This document shows, piece by piece, positions 92 through 25,740 of a DNA stretch of 25,903 bases. Origin of the DNA: a virus. The stretch is from positions 1 through 25,903 of IMG/VR virus record IMGVR_UViG_3300008012_000162; one strand, written 5' to 3'. Positions within the stretch are counted from its first letter, which is position 1. Each line of letters begins with the position of its first letter. Both the position numbers and the translations under genes were made by a program. The notes beneath the pieces are model-generated. The model was not told the DNA's origin. It made no database searches and saw only the letters and a list, made by a program, of their open reading frames with translations.

Positions 92-346
92 TTAGTATCT
101 ATAATCTTCAAGTGCTCCGTCAGCAACTTCGTCAGCAATTGCTTCTTTCGCTTTTTCCTGAAGAGATTCTTCATCAATGGTTGACCCATCTGTTGAAGAC
201 ATTTCAAGGATTTCAATTTCGTCATCGTCGTCTGGTTCCATTGGACATCCGAATTCATCTCGTCCGCCCTTCATTCCTGCTGTTACTTCAGCATCAACAA
301 GAATTTCAGTATCATTGTCATCGTAGATATAAGTAGAAACGATCAT
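92..346 (-). CDS. Acidic 84-residue protein, copy 1 of a paralogous pair
   Basis: I do not recognise a family. The protein is strongly acidic, with a run of Asp/Glu around residues 36-46. It starts MIVSTYIYDD and ends LEDYRY. It is clearly paralogous to the gene at 2980-3234: the same start and end, and the same MKGGRDEFG block in the middle. The start codon touches the TAA stop of the upstream membrane peptide gene (347-508), so the two are probably translated together. The second copy also follows a small membrane-protein gene, although a stop-interrupted ORF lies between. Predicted soluble, no signal peptide or cysteine motif. Function unknown. Confidence 0.85.
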   Translation of the reverse strand: MIVSTYIYDDNDTEILVDAEVTAGMKGGRDEFGCPMEPDDDDEIEILEMSSTDGSTIDEESLQEKAKEAIADEVADGALEDYRY

Positions 347-682: not shown

Positions 683-1840
683 TTAAAGTGGGTTGTTCGT
701 GGCGATCTCCATTTGACCGACAAGCTGACGAAACAAGAATTGCTGAAAACCACGCGTTTCGTCGCGATGTCCTGTTGTTAGGTGGTAATGTTCTTCCAAC
801 ACAGTTTGAACAAGATCGTGCAAACCGTGATCGAAAGCTTTGTCAGTAAGGAAGATTTTATCGTCTTTGGCATAACCATAAAGATCGTCGCCTTCTCTTG
901 TTTTGACGAATTCGATTGGCGCTTCAACTTCAACGCCAGCACCTTTTAAAAACTCAATAGCTTTCGTTAACTTAATCTGTTGAAACTGTGTTGGCTCGAA
1001 AGATTCGCGTTGGATTTCGCCACGACGATTATTATGGATATTTGCCAGATTATTTGCAAGTTTGCGACAATTCACAAGCGCCAATTCAATGGCATCAAGA
1101 AACTTTTCGCTTACTGGCGTATTACTCCAAATTGCGTGATAATTTGGATAATTGGAAGTTAACGCTGTTTGAATGACAGCAGAATTTTCGCTCTGCGCTA
1201 ACAAACAAGCAATTTGCTGATCTGCGCAATTAATGGTTCTGTCTTCTGTCAGATCGGCGTCAGCAAAATTTACGCTTAAAGGAATGTCCATTGTGCCAAC
1301 CAAAACACCTTTACAGTAAGCGTTGCCTTTACTGCAATCAAGAATCTGATTGTCATTAATGGTTTCAACAACTGGAATGTTAGCATCAAGGAAGTATTTA
1401 TCCCGCTCATTCCAACAAGTTTCAATTTCAGGATGTTTAACCGTAACAACGGTATCGAAACCATCGATAGGCTTATTCGTGGAATCTCCACCTTCGTCAA
1501 GTGCATTAGAATGAAGCTCACGGAACCATTGCCATGCTTTCCAATGTTTTCCATAGTCCGTGCAGTATGCAAGCTTTTCACCATTGCACAGTATCACGTC
1601 AAAGTCTTTTCCACGGATATTCTGAGATTCCGTCGTGAAAATGTATGTGTAAACTTCATTGTCTGTGCCACGTGTTTTGATTGAAATGTTGCCGCCTGTG
1701 CGGAGAATGCCAGCAATGGCGTATTTCAACCCTGTGCCGAATTTACCAATTTTCGAATCGTCAGCTTTGACACTAACACCCATCATGCGAAACGACTCTT
1801 CATTGAGAGTCCCGTTATTGTAGAATCTGATTTTTTTCAT
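683..1840 (-). CDS. Bergerat-fold (GHKL/HSP90-like) ATPase-like protein, motif order unusual
   Basis: 385 residues. Residues 31-41 read IGKFGTGLKYA, which resembles the G2 box of HSP90/GyrB-type ATPases (GxxGxGxxxA). Residues 108-115 read ELHSNALD, matching the ExxxNxxD N-box that binds Mg-ATP. In HSP90, MutL and GyrB the N-box precedes the G2 box; here it follows, suggesting a permuted or rebuilt fold. Near the C-terminus EEHYHLTTGHRDE (349-361) is reminiscent of a metalloprotease helix but is not a clean HExxH. The gene has its own promoter, with the -10 box nine bases from the ATG. An ATP-binding chaperone or DNA-transaction role is inference only. The six-unit repeat array lies directly upstream. 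Confidence 0.8.
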   Translation of the reverse strand: MKKIRFYNNGTLNEESFRMMGVSVKADDSKIGKFGTGLKYAIAGILRTGGNISIKTRGTDNEVYTYIFTTESQNIRGKDFDVILCNGEKLAYCTDYGKHWKAWQWFRELHSNALDEGGDSTNKPIDGFDTVVTVKHPEIETCWNERDKYFLDANIPVVETINDNQILDCSKGNAYCKGVLVGTMDIPLSVNFADADLTEDRTINCADQQIACLLAQSENSAVIQTALTSNYPNYHAIWSNTPVSEKFLDAIELALVNCRKLANNLANIHNNRRGEIQRESFEPTQFQQIKLTKAIEFLKGAGVEVEAPIEFVKTREGDDLYGYAKDDKIFLTDKAFDHGLHDLVQTVLEEHYHLTTGHRDETRGFQQFLFRQLVGQMEIATNNPL

Positions 1841-2979: not shown

Positions 2980-3234
2980 CTAATAGCGATAATCTTCTAA
3001 TGCGCCTTCGGCTATTTCGTCAAGAATTGCTTCTTTAGCTTTGCTTTGCAATCCTTCCTCATCGAATGATGAGCCACAGGTTGAAGACATTTCGAGGATT
3101 TCCACTTCTGGTTCATCGTCTGGTTCCATTTGGCGACCGAATTCATCGCGTCCACCTTTCATCCCCATAGAGACTTCTGCATCCACGAGAATTTCGGTGT
3201 CGTCATCACTATATATGTATGTTGAAACTATCAT
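2980..3234 (-). CDS. Acidic 84-residue protein, copy 2
   Basis: Paralogue of 92-346: same length, same MIVSTYIY start, MKGGRDEFG block, acidic centre and LEDYRY end. Its ATG overlaps the TGA of the interrupted ORF 3231-3392 in an ATGA junction, indicating translational coupling. Ends in TAG. Function unknown. Retention of two near-identical acidic proteins beside small membrane peptides suggests the module matters, but what it does is not visible. Confidence 0.85.
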   Translation of the reverse strand: MIVSTYIYSDDDTEILVDAEVSMGMKGGRDEFGRQMEPDDEPEVEILEMSSTCGSSFDEEGLQSKAKEAILDEIAEGALEDYRY

Positions 3235-6857: not shown

Positions 6858-8339
6858 TTACTCGACTGCTGCATAGCGTTCACTTTCGATCACCGCATCC
6901 ATCATATCAACTGGTGTCATGACTTCTACAGCAAGCGCCGATTTTAAAATCGATGGTGAAGCTCCTGATACGAGACATGTGCCTCGATCATCCTTTGTTA
7001 CTGGTTGATCTTTACCATAGGCATTCACATTCCAGAATACAACTTCAGGGAATTTATAACCAGCAGCTTCAAATTTCTTTTTCGCCGCTTCGTAGTTAGT
7101 CCCTGTGTTATCACAGGCTTGATCAAATTGCATATCACTCACGATGAAAAGAGTATCAATCATTTCATCTGCATCAATGTTATTAGCTACCGCAGTTGAC
7201 AGTATAAGATCAAACGCTGCTTGAAGGTTTGTTGAACCCCAATAACCACCTTTCTCATTTAGGTGCGCAACTTTTTCATAGATATTGCTACCTTTGATCG
7301 TTACAAGTTCCGCGCTTGAAGAAAATGGCATATAGCAGTCTTTCCAAACACCTTCGTTACGTTCCGCAATATAGATGCTCAATGATAGAGCAACATCAAT
7401 TGGACTTACTGAGTCGTTACGTCCACCGTAGTAACCTGATGATCCCATTGATCCAGATTGGTCCGCTAGAACCAGTCCATTGAATGGAGTCACGTAGTTT
7501 GGCAGGTTATCCCACTGCAACGAGATCGTTTGATCAAATGACTTACCATAAGTCTTACGAATCAAGTCATAAGGGTATAGCGTCGATGTTTGAATCTTAG
7601 CGTCACCTTTCTCTACTTTTTCAAGATATTTCTGGTATCGCTGATCTGTTTCGATATCGTGACGACCAAACGCCTTACGATAAATCATTGCTGCACGAGA
7701 AGGAATCTTTTCGTAATCAATCTCGCTCCAGTTTCCACTACACATTTCGCGTTCTACAACGTTCAAACGTGCACGGAGTGATGACAATGCTTTACGATAG
7801 CTTTTTTCATCTACTTCTAAATCCTTGATGAATTCACGCGCCAATTCACGTGTTGCCGCAGATGATGTGTTTGCCGATGGCATCCACTTCGCTAGCAATG
7901 ATGGAAACTCTGCTTCAAGATCTTCCTGAAACTGTTCAAGGATCACTTCTTTAGCCAAAGACCAAAGTGAAGTTCCACGTAGTGCAAAATAGTCATCCCA
8001 ACGTCCATATTCAGGAATCAGGTTAATGTTTCGCGCCAACGCATCTTTGTGAACGTTCGCTAAGTAGTTATAGATCGTGCGAGGAACTTTACGTTCACCC
8101 GCTCCACCACGAACATCTCGCGCCCAAAACAAAATTTTCAATGCTTTGGTTGGATCTTCACCATATGCGGCTGAGAACGCATTAATCACTTCCTGATCGC
8201 TTCGTGCTCGCATTGATCCAATGCTTCCGAATAAGTCTACACAGTTGTTCAATGACGACTTGTTTGACTTTGCTCCTTTGTGGTTTACAGTTGCATTTGC
8301 ACGCTTCTGTAGTCCGTCTTTTAGCTTATTAGTGCTCAT
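6858..8339 (-). CDS. DUF2828-type von Willebrand A protein
   Basis: 493 residues from the ATG at 8339 (MSTNKLKDGL), preceded by a weak GAGAG ribosome site. Residues 74-83 (RDVRGGAGER) sit in a helical repeat-like N-terminal half. The C-terminal half is a vWA domain with a complete MIDAS: DQSGS (293-297), T370 and the SDMQFD motif at 401. The stretch PEVVFWNVNAYG and the end AVIESERYAAVE match the layout I know from DUF2828 proteins of plants, bacteria and phages. They resemble TROVE/Ro60 in having a helical domain plus vWA, so RNA binding is plausible but unproven. Strong own promoter, 265-base leader and own terminator. Cytosolic. Confidence 0.85.
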   Translation of the reverse strand: MSTNKLKDGLQKRANATVNHKGAKSNKSSLNNCVDLFGSIGSMRARSDQEVINAFSAAYGEDPTKALKILFWARDVRGGAGERKVPRTIYNYLANVHKDALARNINLIPEYGRWDDYFALRGTSLWSLAKEVILEQFQEDLEAEFPSLLAKWMPSANTSSAATRELAREFIKDLEVDEKSYRKALSSLRARLNVVEREMCSGNWSEIDYEKIPSRAAMIYRKAFGRHDIETDQRYQKYLEKVEKGDAKIQTSTLYPYDLIRKTYGKSFDQTISLQWDNLPNYVTPFNGLVLADQSGSMGSSGYYGGRNDSVSPIDVALSLSIYIAERNEGVWKDCYMPFSSSAELVTIKGSNIYEKVAHLNEKGGYWGSTNLQAAFDLILSTAVANNIDADEMIDTLFIVSDMQFDQACDNTGTNYEAAKKKFEAAGYKFPEVVFWNVNAYGKDQPVTKDDRGTCLVSGASPSILKSALAVEVMTPVDMMDAVIESERYAAVE

Positions 8340-8610
8340 TTTCTCTCTTGTTGATTTTGCCACAGTTGATGTTGCCGTTACAGTTGTTGATGCTACTGTC
8401 GAGAAAGGACAAGATACAATTATTTTTGCCGTCTTTGGCAAAATGCAATGTTGGTGCATTTTCGTGGAATCGAGCCACAAGATTTGTTTGCTGTATGTAT
8501 CTTAAAAGATCCTCGATGCATTTATTTTTCCTTAATAATGATAGAATAAATGTATGTTTGCTGACCACATCTAAATTTTTAAAAAGTTAGAGATTATCTT
8601 CTCTAAACTT
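8340..8610 (-). promoter_or_regulatory. Long leader of the DUF2828 gene
   Basis: About 265 bases of untranslated RNA. Its 5' end folds at once into AAGTT-AGAGA/TCTCT-AACTT followed by a U-run, so it may be an attenuator or a 5' stabiliser. Two overlapping small ORFs are open on the same strand: 33 residues from 8521 to 8420 with an AAGGA site upstream, and 79 residues from 8568 to 8329 overlapping the main start. I cannot tell whether either is translated. Confidence 0.4.
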
Positions 8611-8696: not shown

Positions 8697-9458
8697 TTAG
8701 TAACAGAGTTCATTAGCGTGTTTAACGATATCAAATGTTGGATGGCTCATTAACTTTTTTGCTGCCGCAAATTTTTCTTTGTTTTGTGACCATATTTTTC
8801 CAATTACTGGAAATTCATTGTTGAACTGTTGCTCCATCGCATCTGCTAAGACACGAATCTCCGATTGCGCATGAGAATCTGTGCGCAAACCCAAAAAATG
8901 CATAAGGTTATGAAGATCGACATTTACTGTTATTGCTGTCATTAAGTTTAGCGGCAAGATCATTCGCGCTTGCTCTTTCGCTACATTCTCATCTAACATA
9001 TGAGAGTAAAGTCCATAAGCTTTTTCACACAGTTCCTCTATCTCCTCGCTAAAGAAAATGGCTAACTCCTTATAGGCTTCACCTTTCTCGTGGAGTTTGC
9101 CGCCTGAACCCTGTTTATTACCTGTCTCATTCTGAATTCTCCATTCATCATAGGTAGGTATATAAAAATCGTCACGCATCTCAGAATATCGTCCGCTTTC
9201 TTCATTAAGGCGAAATGTGCGGTGACGCACAAATTGGCGCATGACAAAAATTGGCATTCGAATTTCAAACGTAATGCTTGCTTGTTCGAACGGGGAGGAA
9301 TGGCGGTTGCTCAGAAGATAGTTCAACAGTCTAGTATCCTGCTTCTCACCCTTTAACGCCGTTGCTCCGTAACTCTGTCGTGCTGCCTTAACTGGAGTCC
9401 AATCATCCCCCAATACGTCAACGACCCTACAAAAACCTAAATCGTGATATAGATTCAT
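8697..9458 (-). CDS. thyX: Flavin-dependent thymidylate synthase
   Basis: 253 residues, a normal ThyX length. It methylates dUMP to dTMP with methylene-tetrahydrofolate, FAD and NADPH, supplying thymidylate for phage DNA synthesis. The signature RHRx7S is present at residues 78-88 (RHRTFRLNEES), followed by GRYSEM. Downstream SHAQSEIRV supplies the usual C-terminal substrate-binding region. The start overlaps the stop of the upstream 43-residue membrane peptide gene in an ATGA junction, so both are translated together. Very secure assignment. Confidence 0.97.
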   Translation of the reverse strand: MNLYHDLGFCRVVDVLGDDWTPVKAARQSYGATALKGEKQDTRLLNYLLSNRHSSPFEQASITFEIRMPIFVMRQFVRHRTFRLNEESGRYSEMRDDFYIPTYDEWRIQNETGNKQGSGGKLHEKGEAYKELAIFFSEEIEELCEKAYGLYSHMLDENVAKEQARMILPLNLMTAITVNVDLHNLMHFLGLRTDSHAQSEIRVLADAMEQQFNNEFPVIGKIWSQNKEKFAAAKKLMSHPTFDIVKHANELCY

Positions 9459-18353: not shown

Positions 18354-18605
18354 CTATAATGGATTTAGATCATCATCAAATTCTTCAAATGATTCGTCAA
18401 GTCGTGATATCTTCTTAGAGAATTCTGGCTTGAACATCATCCACCAATTCTGTGGTGTTAGAGCTTGATGTAGCAACTTGTATCGTTTTGTCTTTTTGCA
18501 TTTTCCGTAAAGTCGATAATAGTGAGGGAACCGAAGCTTTTCATTTCGTTGACAAGCAACCATGAAGAACTTTGAATACCTCCACTTCCAGAGTAGCGTG
18601 ATCAT
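18354..18605 (-). CDS. Hypothetical basic protein, 83 aa
   Basis: Basic N-terminal two thirds with many Lys/Arg/Tyr/Trp (YYRLYGKCKKTKRYKLLHQ) and an acidic C-terminal tail (DESFEEFDDDLN). ATG overlaps the stop of the HD-protein gene (TAATG). It could bind nucleic acid by composition; no family recognised. Confidence 0.75.
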   Translation of the reverse strand: MITLLWKWRYSKFFMVACQRNEKLRFPHYYRLYGKCKKTKRYKLLHQALTPQNWWMMFKPEFSKKISRLDESFEEFDDDLNPL

Positions 18606-19012
18606 TACTTTATTAACACCAATAATGCCGCAGCATACTTTTTAATTTGGTATTTTGTAGGAGAATCACTGAGGTTAGAAAGAATATCTTCAACCTTCAC
18701 GTATAAAGCTAATCCACCGTGGCTTTTGATACGATAGATGAAATCTGGATATTTTTCAGTATAACCCTGTGTTAAAACAACGACTTCATCTACAAGGTGC
18801 TGTGGGATTCCACGTTTAACCAATTTTTCGGCGCTCCAATCTTCACAGTCCTCAAGGACATCATGTAACCATGCTACCACTTGAGCTTCTTCGCCGTGAC
18901 ATCTACGTGCCACTGTAGCAGGATGGGTGATATATGGAGTATAGCCATTGCGTCGAGTTTGACCCAAATGAGCTTCGTGTGCAATATCCTGTGCTAATTT
19001 TACAATATTCAT
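18605..19012 (-). CDS. HD-domain protein, alarmone-hydrolase (MESH1/SpoT-N)-like
   Basis: 135 residues. The pattern AHEAHLGQTRRNGYTPYITHP and WLHDVLEDC is that of the (p)ppGpp hydrolase domain of SpoT and MESH1. Metal ligands are predicted at H30, H50, D51 and D109 (YVKVEDILSNLSD, the counterpart of the KxxDxxxN helix). The domain is short but complete enough for a single-domain hydrolase. If active it would clear the host alarmone and hold off the stringent response; other HD phosphohydrolase substrates are possible. No synthetase domain. Confidence 0.88.
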   Translation of the reverse strand: MNIVKLAQDIAHEAHLGQTRRNGYTPYITHPATVARRCHGEEAQVVAWLHDVLEDCEDWSAEKLVKRGIPQHLVDEVVVLTQGYTEKYPDFIYRIKSHGGLALYVKVEDILSNLSDSPTKYQIKKYAAALLVLIK

Positions 19013-19589: not shown

Positions 19590-19617
19590 ATTATACACGC
19601 TCTCTGAGGATTGTCAA
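19590..19617 (-). promoter_or_regulatory. Promoter of the Thr/Glu tRNA unit
   Basis: TTGACA, 16 bp, TATAAT. The -35 box overlaps the 3' end of the HNH gene 19614-19952. Confidence 0.9.
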
Positions 19618-19952
19618 GAAGGATCTTCTAAATGATGATGTTCAGCATGACAATTAGCGCATAAAAGATCACATTTTTTACTTTCTTCAAAAACTACCGC
19701 CCACTTCTTACTGGCTAAATTTTTATGGCGAAGTCCGAACTTCTTTTTGGACGGATCTTTATGGTGAAAGTGTAGAGCGGCAATACATTTGTCATACCCG
19801 CATTCTTGACACCTTCCACCGTGCATTGCGACAAGCAGACGTTTTCGTTCTCTCGCTCGCTCTCGCGCATTATATTTTACGCAACAAGAGCTTGAACAAT
19901 ATAGACCATCTCTATCAATACTCTCATTACCGCAATTTTTACATTCTTTCAT
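19614..19952 (-). CDS. HNH endonuclease (homing-type)
   Basis: 112 residues. N-terminal zinc knuckle (CKNCGNES, CSSSC), basic helix (YNARERARERKRL), second CxxC (CQECGYDKC), then the HNH core FHHKDP and CANCHAEHH. Same family as 19981-20361 and 25381-25740. Free-standing HNH genes of this kind spread by cutting tRNA or gene borders. Divergent from the next HNH gene with only 28 bases between starts. Confidence 0.92.
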   Translation of the reverse strand: MKECKNCGNESIDRDGLYCSSSCCVKYNARERARERKRLLVAMHGGRCQECGYDKCIAALHFHHKDPSKKKFGLRHKNLASKKWAVVFEESKKCDLLCANCHAEHHHLEDPS

Positions 19953-19980: not shown

Positions 19981-20361
19981 ATGGTTATGAAGCGATGTCA
20001 TAATTGTAATAAGAAACTAGCAGGTCGTCAAGAAAAATGGTGCTCTCGTAAATGTCAGAGTGATAATGCTAATATAAGAAATCAAAACTATCAAAAACAA
20101 CAAGAGAGGGCGCAAGAGCGTAAAGCTAAAATCTTAGAGTTAAAGGGTGATTGCTGTCAGAATTGTGGTTATTATCGTGCCACTGCCGCTCTTACATTTC
20201 ATCATCGTGACCCTTCACAAAAATTATTTCCTTTGGATGCGAGGAATTTATCAAATCGAAAATGGAGCAACATAATAAAAGAATTAGAAAAGTGTGACCT
20301 CTTGTGTTTTAATTGTCACATGGAAGAACATCACGGGATAGATAGGATAGGCAAGAATTGA
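19981..20361 (+). CDS. HNH endonuclease, opposite strand
   Basis: 126 residues, closely similar in layout to 19614-19952: CHNCNKKL and CSRKC knuckles, basic helix, CQNCGYY, FHHRDP and CFNCHMEEHH. It is one of the few plus-strand genes in this region. The last codons (DRIGKN) read through the 3' end of the antisense tRNA-Met gene, so the endonuclease gene seems to have been pasted right up to it. Confidence 0.92.
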   Translation: MVMKRCHNCNKKLAGRQEKWCSRKCQSDNANIRNQNYQKQQERAQERKAKILELKGDCCQNCGYYRATAALTFHHRDPSQKLFPLDARNLSNRKWSNIIKELEKCDLLCFNCHMEEHHGIDRIGKN

Positions 20362-21065: not shown

Positions 21066-21093
21066 AGTATACCTTACTCTTCTAATTCGTCAA
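21066..21093 (-). promoter_or_regulatory. Promoter of tRNA-Cys
   Basis: TTGACG, 16 bp, TATACT, inside the last codons and just past the stop of the release-factor-like gene. Confidence 0.75.
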
Positions 21094-21496
21094 GTTGTTT
21101 TTTCTTAAAAAAGGAAAATCTATCAGCAACGATCTTTTCAAAATCTGTCGCTGTAGAATATTTAGCGCCAGAATCATGATCAACTATGCGATTGTCAGCA
21201 TAGTTGTAAGTTCTTATTGTTCTGTTTCCGTCTCGTTCTTGCCGAGAAGTTTGCGTCAAAACGCTTTTCGTTTCTCCTTGTTCGCTTTCCGCTTCTCTTT
21301 CCACTTCTGCCAGTTTTCGCCACCAGCTAACAATTTTTGGGGCGAGTTTGTTGAAAGCTCGTTTACGGTTTTCGAGTTTGGATCTAGTTTCGCGACACTC
21401 GGAACTGAAGCCACTTTCTTCGTGGGTAATTCTAACGCCGGTATTCGTTTTATTTTGGTGTTGTCCACCTTTACCACCTGCTCTGAATTCCTCCAC
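21074..21496 (-). CDS. Release-factor (GGQ) domain protein, 140 aa
   Basis: GGQ at residues 10-12 within FRAGGKGGQHQNKT, then GVRITHEESGF, RSKLENRKRAF, and the C-terminal RTYNYADNRIVDH, all conserved in class I peptide release factors. GGQ triggers peptidyl-tRNA hydrolysis in the ribosome. No stop-codon-reading domain is present, as in ArfB-like rescue factors. Start is GTG at 21496, but homology to the family (RKDFRVEEFR) extends six codons upstream, up to an in-frame TGA. The first half overlaps the 21256-21708 gene in another frame. A role in rescuing ribosomes or altering termination is inferred. Confidence 0.85.
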   Translation of the reverse strand: MEEFRAGGKGGQHQNKTNTGVRITHEESGFSSECRETRSKLENRKRAFNKLAPKIVSWWRKLAEVEREAESEQGETKSVLTQTSRQERDGNRTIRTYNYADNRIVDHDSGAKYSTATDFEKIVADRFSFFKKKQLDELEE

Positions 21497-21708
21497 TCGG
21501 AAGTCTTTGCGTCACGCGATTCACTGAGGATTGCCGCATGACGACGTAGATCTTGATCTGTTATTATGATTGGTTTTGTCGTCCATGTTTCTTCTGTTGG
21601 TTGTTCTTTCGCCACGACTGCTGGTGCCGAAGGATACTGAGTTTTTCCGTCAGCTAATATTATAGCGCCAAACGCAAAAAAAGTTGCAATAAATATGATA
21701 TATTTCAT
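21256..21708 (-). CDS. Secreted basic protein, 150 aa, overlapping the GGQ gene
   Basis: N-terminal signal peptide (MKYIIFIATFFAFGAIILA, likely cleavage after ILA) followed by DGKTQYP, a motif also found just after the signal of the upstream L,D-transpeptidase-like protein. C-terminus strongly basic (KWKEKRKANKEKRKAF). Its ATG overlaps the upstream stop (ATGA). Residues 72-150 are encoded by DNA that also encodes the GGQ domain in another frame. The N-terminal half is convincing; the tail may be only a by-product of that overlap. Confidence 0.65.
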   Translation of the reverse strand: MKYIIFIATFFAFGAIILADGKTQYPSAPAVVAKEQPTEETWTTKPIIITDQDLRRHAAILSESRDAKTSEWRNSEQVVKVDNTKIKRIPALELPTKKVASVPSVAKLDPNSKTVNELSTNSPQKLLAGGENWQKWKEKRKANKEKRKAF

Positions 21709-22202
21709 TCTTGAATAATTAGTTGGTCGTAATTAGCAATGACTAAATTATACAATTTATTCATGTTGCTTGTACTTAAATTTACACATCCTTTAGAACC
21801 ATCACCATAATCTTTATGCACCAAAATTCCGCGCTTCCAACCTTGATACCATCCACTTGTTATGTCGGGGTTGTTAATGTCCGCTGGTGGAGGACCAGTT
21901 AGCCGCAATACTAGTCCATATCTATGACGTGGTTGTTTAACAAACAGAAATTTACCTGTTGGTGTTTGGTTTGACTCTAAAACATAACCAATTCCCTTTT
22001 CTGAACCTTCTGCCCAAAATGTAACCGTCTTATCTTCTAAAACAACTTTACAAGTCTGATCAGATAGGTCCACAATAATCTCGCAAGGTGGACGGTGCCA
22101 TTTTGCAACAGTTACTATCTCTGGTTCAACAGGATATTGTGTTTTTTGTGCATCAACAATCGTGCAGCAACATAACGCAAAAAGTGTAATTAGCAGTTTC
22201 AT
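21705..22202 (-). CDS. L,D-transpeptidase (YkuD)-like secreted protein
   Basis: 165 residues from ATG 22202 (MKLLITLFAL); the longer frame runs into tRNA-Leu. Signal peptide residues 1-18 (ends CCCTIVDA; the Cys run could also be a lipobox variant). The catalytic motif is GILVHKDYGDGSKGCVNLS: the H and the SxGC of YkuD enzymes, with Cys as nucleophile. Preceding strands (KVVLEDKTVTFWAEGSEKG, TPTGKFLFVKQ) match the domain. Such enzymes cross-link or cut peptidoglycan peptides; in a phage this could serve lysis or block superinfection (inference). Confidence 0.88.
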   Translation of the reverse strand: MKLLITLFALCCCTIVDAQKTQYPVEPEIVTVAKWHRPPCEIIVDLSDQTCKVVLEDKTVTFWAEGSEKGIGYVLESNQTPTGKFLFVKQPRHRYGLVLRLTGPPPADINNPDITSGWYQGWKRGILVHKDYGDGSKGCVNLSTSNMNKLYNLVIANYDQLIIQE

Positions 22203-22225
22203 ACCACTAATTACACTTTTAAAAG

Positions 22226-22299
22226 TATTGCGGGTGGGAGTCGAACCCACACAACGTCAGGGCTTAAACCTGATGGCTTTGCCGTTTGCCTACCGCAAC
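22226..22299 (-). tRNA. tRNA-Leu (TAA) with a short variable loop
   Basis: Acceptor GTTGCGG/CCGCAAT, D stem GGC/GCC of only three pairs, anticodon arm TCAGG-TTTAAGC-CCTGA, T arm GTGGG-TTCGACT-CCCAC, discriminator A. The variable region is 6 bases, whereas bacterial Leu tRNAs have a long extra arm. Confidence 0.88.
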
Positions 22300-24393: not shown

Positions 24394-24789
24394 TTATTTT
24401 AACCTGTTATATTTTAAACGTTTTTGATTCCCATTTCCTTTATTTAGCGCCTTATATGTTGGTGTTAAACTGTGACAATTGGGACATATTAAATCTAAAT
24501 TTTCAGGTTTGTTATTTTCTGAATTACCGTCTAAATGCTCTACTTCTAATATTGGTTTTCCTGTTACGGGGTTTGGAGTATTCCACCCACAACGAGAACA
24601 TTGGTTATCATGTATTTCCCAAAGGTAGCGTCGAACATAGTTGGATACTTTAAATCCATTAGCATAAGTTCCTGTCTCTTTACCTTCAAACCATCGTTTA
24701 ATATATAAAGTATATTCATAGTCTTTTTGACATTGAACGCTACAATACTTTTGGTTTTTTGTTTTAGTATTACATTTAAGGCATTCCAT
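24394..24789 (-). CDS. HNH endonuclease (different subtype)
   Basis: 131 residues. N-terminal zinc knuckle CLKCNTKT/CSVQC, then CSRCGWNTP and the HNH core LEVEHLDGNSENNKPENL with DLICPNCHS. Not closely similar to the other three. The stop codon directly touches the 5' end of tRNA-Trp and the start is eight bases from tRNA-Lys, so it exactly fills the gap between two tRNA genes. Confidence 0.92.
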   Translation of the reverse strand: MECLKCNTKTKNQKYCSVQCQKDYEYTLYIKRWFEGKETGTYANGFKVSNYVRRYLWEIHDNQCSRCGWNTPNPVTGKPILEVEHLDGNSENNKPENLDLICPNCHSLTPTYKALNKGNGNQKRLKYNRLK

Positions 24790-25380: not shown

Positions 25381-25740
25381 TTAATTTTCTTCTGCGTGTA
25401 TTTCACGGTGACAGTTGGCACAAACTAATTGACATTTATCTACTTCTTTTTTCAATTTGTCAAGCGATTTTGTATGTCCATTTGCAGAAATACCAAAATC
25501 TTTTTCATTGGGGTTTTTGTGGTGGAAGTCTAAAGCTTCGATACATTTATTGTAACCGCACTTTTCACATTTTCCTCCTTTATATTCTACTAATAAACGT
25601 TTTACTTTTTTACGTCTACGTTGAACCGCTTCTGACCCGCACTTTTTACAACGAAGTCGTTCCCATTTAGTTCCTTCGTTTTCTAATCTATGTTCAGTTT
25701 CTCCGTGTTTATTGCATTTTTTAATTACTATTTTTGGCAT
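25381..25740 (-). CDS. HNH endonuclease (homing-type)
   Basis: 119 residues. Two zinc knuckles (CNKHGETEH with CKKCGS; CEKCGYNKC), a basic helix (RRRKKVKRLL), then FHHKNP and CANCHREIH. Same family as the pair at 19614-20361. Ends three bases from the 5' end of the 130-base tRNA-like RNA and starts 29 bases from the next tRNA. Confidence 0.92.
   Translation of the reverse strand: MPKIVIKKCNKHGETEHRLENEGTKWERLRCKKCGSEAVQRRRKKVKRLLVEYKGGKCEKCGYNKCIEALDFHHKNPNEKDFGISANGHTKSLDKLKKEVDKCQLVCANCHREIHAEEN

Follow-up and report, generated by a model that had tools for sequence, protein, structure and literature searches.

The gene at positions 683-1840 of the window (the whole stretch of DNA analyzed here, a virus record of 25,903 bases that includes a T4-like terminase gene) encodes a phage protein whose GHKL ATPase domain is, almost certainly, a circularly permuted version of the Bergerat fold. 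Taken as a whole, the protein probably couples this permuted ATPase domain to a transducer domain of the Hsp90/GyrB type and a zincin-like C-terminal tail. The Bergerat fold, shared by Hsp90, gyrase, MutL, and histidine kinases, ranks among the principal folds for ATP binding. In the open-access literature that we searched, we met no natural case of a circularly permuted domain of this kind. The proposal of the first-pass annotation, a permuted Bergerat fold linked to a protease-like tail, is supported.

That annotation had proposed a coding region here without naming a strand; the region is indeed occupied by one complete ORF, which by ORF calling and translation lies on the minus strand, with its ATG at 1840 and its stop at 683 (385 aa), and a frame check found that the plus strand is not open across the same interval. 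The protein matches phrog_8203, the family of YuA gp29, from end to end (E=1.7e-55) and phrog_6077 more weakly; the PHROG entry for the former reads 'unknown function', and no description of its permutation was found in the literature searched. The protein is a full-length member of phrog_8203, sharing its order of motifs and its tail and showing no structural difference. Relatives were recovered by tblastn in 78 phage records (66 of them at a coverage of at least 80%), spanning YuA-like Pseudomonas phages and phages of Bordetella, Stenotrophomonas, Synechococcus, and Bradyrhizobium, and among the matches listed the full-length phage relatives are about 29-35% identical to the query. Most are labeled 'hypothetical protein', with an occasional 'HATPase', 'ATP-binding protein', or 'hydrolase, metallopeptidase'. 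Further loci were found in IMG/VR (292, one of them on a contig overlapping the window at 99.97% identity) and on bacterial genome contigs (13). Two copies have broken frames, those of Pseudomonas phage EKU1 (L010) and Escherichia phage ERS-1 (L012); the record of ERS-1 is flagged as unverified, and its copy resembles a damaged YuA-type sequence.

Several other genes of the window deserve mention. Two very similar 84-aa acidic paralogs (MIVSTYIY...ALEDYRY; 92-346 and 2980-3234, both minus) flank the permuted gene and have no PHROG match. A 540-aa protein (6858-8480, minus) combines DUF2828 and DUF7788 with a DxSGSM motif like that of vWA/TROVE (Ro60-like) proteins. The ORF at 21074-21496 (minus) has a release-factor RF-1 domain with a GGQ motif (Pfam, E=3.6e-21), and its predicted product is a phage-encoded release factor or a ribosome-rescue-like protein. 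There are also a ThyX thymidylate synthase (8697-9458), an HD_4-domain protein (18605-19012), a YkuD L,D-transpeptidase-domain protein (21705-22250), and four small Cys/His-rich HNH-endonuclease-like ORFs (19614-19952, 19981-20361, 24394-24789, and 25381-25740), three of which are clearly similar to each other.

Table 1. Features of the permuted protein and, for comparison, the predicted elements of its canonical-order relative L147.
Feature	Residues	Position in window	Strand	Evidence
Whole gene: permuted GHKL ATPase, transducer-like domain, zincin-like tail		683..1840	-	phrog_8203 match; AlphaFold2 pLDDT 90.5
G1-like strand and loop, IRFYNNG	4-10	1811..1831	-	Alignment to the G1 segment of canonical-order relatives
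G2-like glycine loop, KIGKFGTGLKYA	30-41	1718..1753	-	G32, F34, G35, and G37 invariant in 68 members
Relocated block	~84-121	1478..1591	-	Off-diagonal profile match; score gain to 167.2; secondary structure
LTEDRT in transducer-like domain	197-202	1235..1252	-	L197, E199, and R201 invariant
Zincin-like tail	284-385	686..991	-	VIA-align to zincins; profile match to HExxH tails
EExxH...D motif, EEHYHLTTGHRD	349-360	761..796	-	E349, E350, H353, and D360 invariant (68 members)
Window protein, predicted elements	strand 4-8 (G1), helix 15-18, helix 36-47, strands 51-57, 63-75, 78-85, strand 88-93, helix 102-115 (N-box), strand 119-121, strand 130-135			
L147, predicted elements	strand 2-9, helix 18-36 (N-box), strand 40-45, strand 48-54 (G1), helix 60-63, helix 83-93, strands 98-102, 105-114, 119-127, strand 135-141			

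Conservation was counted over 68 aligned members of the permuted family. Eleven positions of the ATPase and transducer parts (G32, F34, G35, G37, R107, N112, D115, E116, L197, E199, and R201) and four of the tail (E349, E350, H353, and D360) are invariant, and residue 108 is Glu in 67 of the 68. Two of the three classical GHKL motifs are thereby recovered: the ExxxN of the N-box, as R107-E108-L109-x-x-N112-x-x-D115 within RELHSNALDE (residues 107-116), and the GxxGxG of the G2 box, as G32-x-F34-G35-x-G37. This invariance across aligned relatives argues that the GHKL-like motifs are not a chance match. The Asp of the G1 DxGxG motif, in contrast, is absent: the corresponding segment reads N8-x-G10, with residue 8 being Asn (62/68), Thr (5/68), or Ser (1/68), and Asn8 takes the place of the usual adenine-contacting Asp. 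This substitution counts against reading the domain as a GHKL ATPase; the Asp is likewise missing from the canonical-order sister family, and the preferred nucleotide of these proteins may or may not be ATP. As the first-pass annotation noted, the G2-like motif precedes the N-box-like one, an order that recurs in every member examined in which both motifs could be located. Since the IRFYNNG segment ahead of the G2 loop aligns with the G1 strand of the relatives, the full order is G1-G2-N, rather than the N-G1-G2 of HSP90/GyrB/MutL. The recurrence of this order across many independent contigs, isolates, and bacterial genome contigs led us to reject both chance and an assembly artefact.

The departure from the canonical motif order is explained by one moved block. 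The homologous sister group with the canonical order, the phrog_6077 group (GAP31_101, A5-4_6, PaMx11_71, and others), shares the GHKL core and transducer, has its N-box first, and for the most part lacks the zincin tail; its motifs are RELxQNAID (near residue 23), GKFGEG (near 73), and L[DE]RDR (near 205), the last aligning with the LTEDRT of the permuted family in the profile alignment. Five members of the canonical-order family match Pfam HATPase_c_3 (best E=5e-6). Profile-profile alignment of the permuted and canonical families gave a collinear match that skips the N-box (probability 98.2%, E=4.3e-14) and a second, off-diagonal match for the N-box itself, joining permuted columns 89-116 to canonical columns 4-31 (E=2.3e-5), which was reproduced when the canonical set was enlarged (E=3.7e-6). 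When residues 84-121 were shifted to the front, the profile score rose from 109.5 to 167.2 (E=3.5e-22). As a control, a 32-residue block was slid along the whole protein and the score recomputed: a single peak emerged at the place of 84-121, with scores of about 71-123 elsewhere. Among model libraries, no native permuted member reaches a GHKL model in Pfam, which gives nothing significant in the 385-aa protein, and de-permuted sequences gain no GHKL match there; family profiles searched against PDB sequences yielded no useful match. The NCBIfam sacsin ATP-binding model matches five of six permuted members at G1/G2, below its cut-off, and de-permutation alters its score little because the match spans G1/G2 alone. 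That the motif order is a coincidence, with an accidental GHKL resemblance on an unrelated fold, draws on the silence of Pfam and of Foldseek searches of the PDB and is scarcely credible against the strong homology to canonical phage GHKL proteins, collinear plus one moved block with its peak only at the junction, the sub-threshold sacsin matches, and the homologous gene that both forms follow in sister subfamilies.

AlphaFold2 gave confident models for both the window protein (pLDDT 90.5) and the canonical-order relative L147 (pLDDT 94.3), and their secondary-structure strings are identical apart from one moved block, comprising strand 88-93, the N-box helix 102-115, and strand 119-121. The permuted model thus has the elements of a Bergerat fold, and the confident fold unrelated to GHKL that would have spoken against the first-pass proposal did not appear. 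L147 aligns with TRAP1, Hsp90, and GyrB from its residue 5 (Z 12-14). On VIA realignment to solved structures, the alignments of the permuted model begin near residue 81 for Hsp90 and at residue 66 for GyrB, at Z of about 5-6 (6.3 to Hsp90), and cover the parts of these proteins that follow their N-boxes; this is the expected behavior of a sequential aligner faced with a permuted chain. Foldseek found no significant match for the permuted model in the PDB. Taken alone, the Z-scores of the permuted model are unconvincing and could reflect a common arrangement, and it is the sequence profiles that carry the argument. Hsp90/TRAP1 and GyrB/ParE resemble the permuted family in having a Bergerat fold followed by a transducer or middle domain with a conserved basic residue, and differ in their N-G1-G2 order, the Asp of their G1, and the lack of a zincin tail. 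A separate observation is that both models structurally match BFVD A0A3Q8Q6V3, a protein of the archaeal filamentous virus Sulfolobales Beppu filamentous phage 1 labeled 'putative viral structural protein'; the predicted structures suggest a GHKL protein in that virus.

The genomic setting of the two forms points to the same event. In the Mesyanzhinovviridae, the permuted form occurs in YuA, of the Rabinowitzvirinae, and the canonical one in PaMx11, of the Bradleyvirinae; the genes immediately upstream are homologous (YuA gp28 and PaMx11_70; E=2.3e-14, 46% identity), so that the pair gp28-gp29 corresponds to PaMx11_70-71. Compared by blastp, gp29 and PaMx11_71 align in two pieces with their order swapped, residues 6-53 with 56-104 (E=5e-4) and residues 82-111 with 11-40, the latter weak by itself (E=0.79). 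In a tree of the de-permuted ATPase and transducer core (unrooted, from a quick search), the permuted proteins form one group (SH-aLRT 100), and five canonical proteins with an HExxH tail sit between this group and the other canonical proteins. The single clade is consistent with one permutation event. The ancestor would have had the canonical order of N-box, G1, G2, transducer, and zincin, and its first strand-helix-strand block would have moved to just behind the G2-linked sheet, where it could still form the same pocket. The circularly permuted Bergerat fold is therefore well supported by profiles, predicted structures, and a canonical homolog behind the same upstream gene, with homology, block order, permutation, and predicted fold each established by computation.

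The tail, compared over residues 280-380, has its best structural matches among asp-zincins and mini-zincins: AsaP1 (Z 7.5, over 96 residues), GfMEP (7.2), Acel_2062 (6.1), and selecase (6.0), all below a Z of 8, with alignments of 84-99 residues (VIA-align). Its family motif is EExxH...D..R..Q (E349, E350, H353, D360, R363, and Q366), in which D360 is a candidate third metal ligand. The standard HExxH is absent from all 68 aligned permuted members, each of which has EExxH. Intact HExxH tails occur in the five canonical-order proteins L147, L159, L174, L175, and L179, carried on long viral contigs (82-398 kb), which share the three-part architecture, are placed by the tree closest to the permuted clade, and differ in their canonical order and intact motif. 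The two kinds of tail align in register (94.9%, E=4.3e-8, profile), so the permuted tail is related to the ordinary HExxH tail, Glu having replaced its first His. The motif of the permuted family, sharing the second His and the Asp, is close to HEXXHXXGXXD, a motif published for asp-zincins (PMC3890501), with one extra residue before the Gly and Glu in first place. The literature searched held nothing on point for EExxH zincins. On these grounds, the description of the C-terminal His-rich helix as a degenerate metalloprotease was reasonable, given the zincin structural match and in-register alignment; since the Glu substitution is invariant, 'fixed EExxH variant' is a better name than 'degenerate'. 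In some relatives (StAshley, a 462-kb phage, a Dependentiae MAG), the permuted ATPase is kept and the tail motif is absent; these relatives, together with the loss of the first His, count against the reading of the protein as a whole. The five HExxH-bearing proteins are possible ATP-linked metallopeptidases, and biochemical work might do better to start with them than with the permuted proteins.

For the permuted family, ATP binding is very likely. ATP and Mg would be bound between the N-box helix and the G1/G2 loops, with E108 activating water and N112 holding Mg, while R201 of the transducer is a candidate gamma-phosphate sensor; these roles follow the well-known analogs in Hsp90 and GyrB. 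On the same analogy, ATP would close the pocket and the movement would be passed to the zincin-like tail, which may bind, and perhaps cut, a protein client. That the tail acts on a client under the control of ATP has, in our estimate, close to an even chance. Speculatively, the client might be some protein of the host or the phage that is acted on in the course of infection, for which rIIA offers a loose analogy. The surroundings of the gene offered little guidance: no conserved neighbor was seen among the genes next to the permuted loci, PADLOC gave no credible link to a defense system, and a plasmid search returned no matches.

What the tail does separates the remaining readings. One, to which we give somewhat less than an even chance, is that it is a pseudo-protease or client-binding module, making the protein an ATP-driven chaperone or remodeling factor like Hsp90; the replacement of the first His in all members, the resemblance of the transducer to the Hsp90 middle domain, and the relatives that retain the ATPase with the tail motif lost all fit, although the invariance of E350, H353, and D360 exceeds the needs of a passive binding module. 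The other would make the protein a working ATP-gated metallopeptidase: the metal would be coordinated by Glu349, His353, and Asp360, with Glu350 serving as general base and access to the site governed by ATP-driven closure of the GHKL domain. The invariance of all four residues points to function rather than decay, the closest tail structures are asp-zincins and mini-zincins, and the canonical-order relatives have intact tails in register with it. However, all members carry Glu in place of the first His ligand, a change on which we found no literature. We know of no characterized zincin with such a Glu-first ligand set. For this substitution true proteolysis by the tail is doubtful, and we regard the working metallopeptidase as unlikely; it is similarly unlikely that the permuted domain, fixed once in phages, drives a previously undescribed EExxH metal site as an ATP-gated phage metallopeptidase acting on a protein of host or phage during infection.

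Less probable still is that these are rIIA-type phage proteins, with a membrane-linked role in counter-defense or lysis control, in which the permutation is incidental. Two canonical relatives are labeled 'RIIA lysis inhibitor', and the canonical L147 model structurally matches RIIA models. T4 rIIA orthologs have an N-terminal GHKL ATPase and a variable C-terminal domain (PMC7824862), and T4 rIIA is in this respect similar to the permuted family, differing in being unpermuted and in having no reported zincin tail. Against an rIIA-type role stand the lack of a conserved neighbor and the confinement of T4 rIIA similarity to the G2 region: in hhalign comparisons with a single rIIA sequence, of limited sensitivity, the canonical profiles matched over 22-46 columns around G2 and the permuted profile gave no significant match (best E=0.066). 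With no homology found beyond the G2 loop, T4 rIIA was rejected on sequence as a close relative.

The preferred reading, a permuted GHKL ATPase with an Hsp90/GyrB-type transducer and a zincin-like tail, bears on how the Bergerat fold works as well as on the phages themselves. As the canonical and permuted forms each follow a homologous gene within two sister subfamilies of a single phage family, the permutation event can be studied directly. Because the G1 strand at the N-terminus replaces the usual first strand, any N-terminal strand-swap dimerization must differ from the usual one, which makes for a testable question on how ATP is coupled to movement in this fold. For phrog_8203, a family found in many Pseudomonas phages, the motifs and predicted structures now suggest a likely biochemistry.
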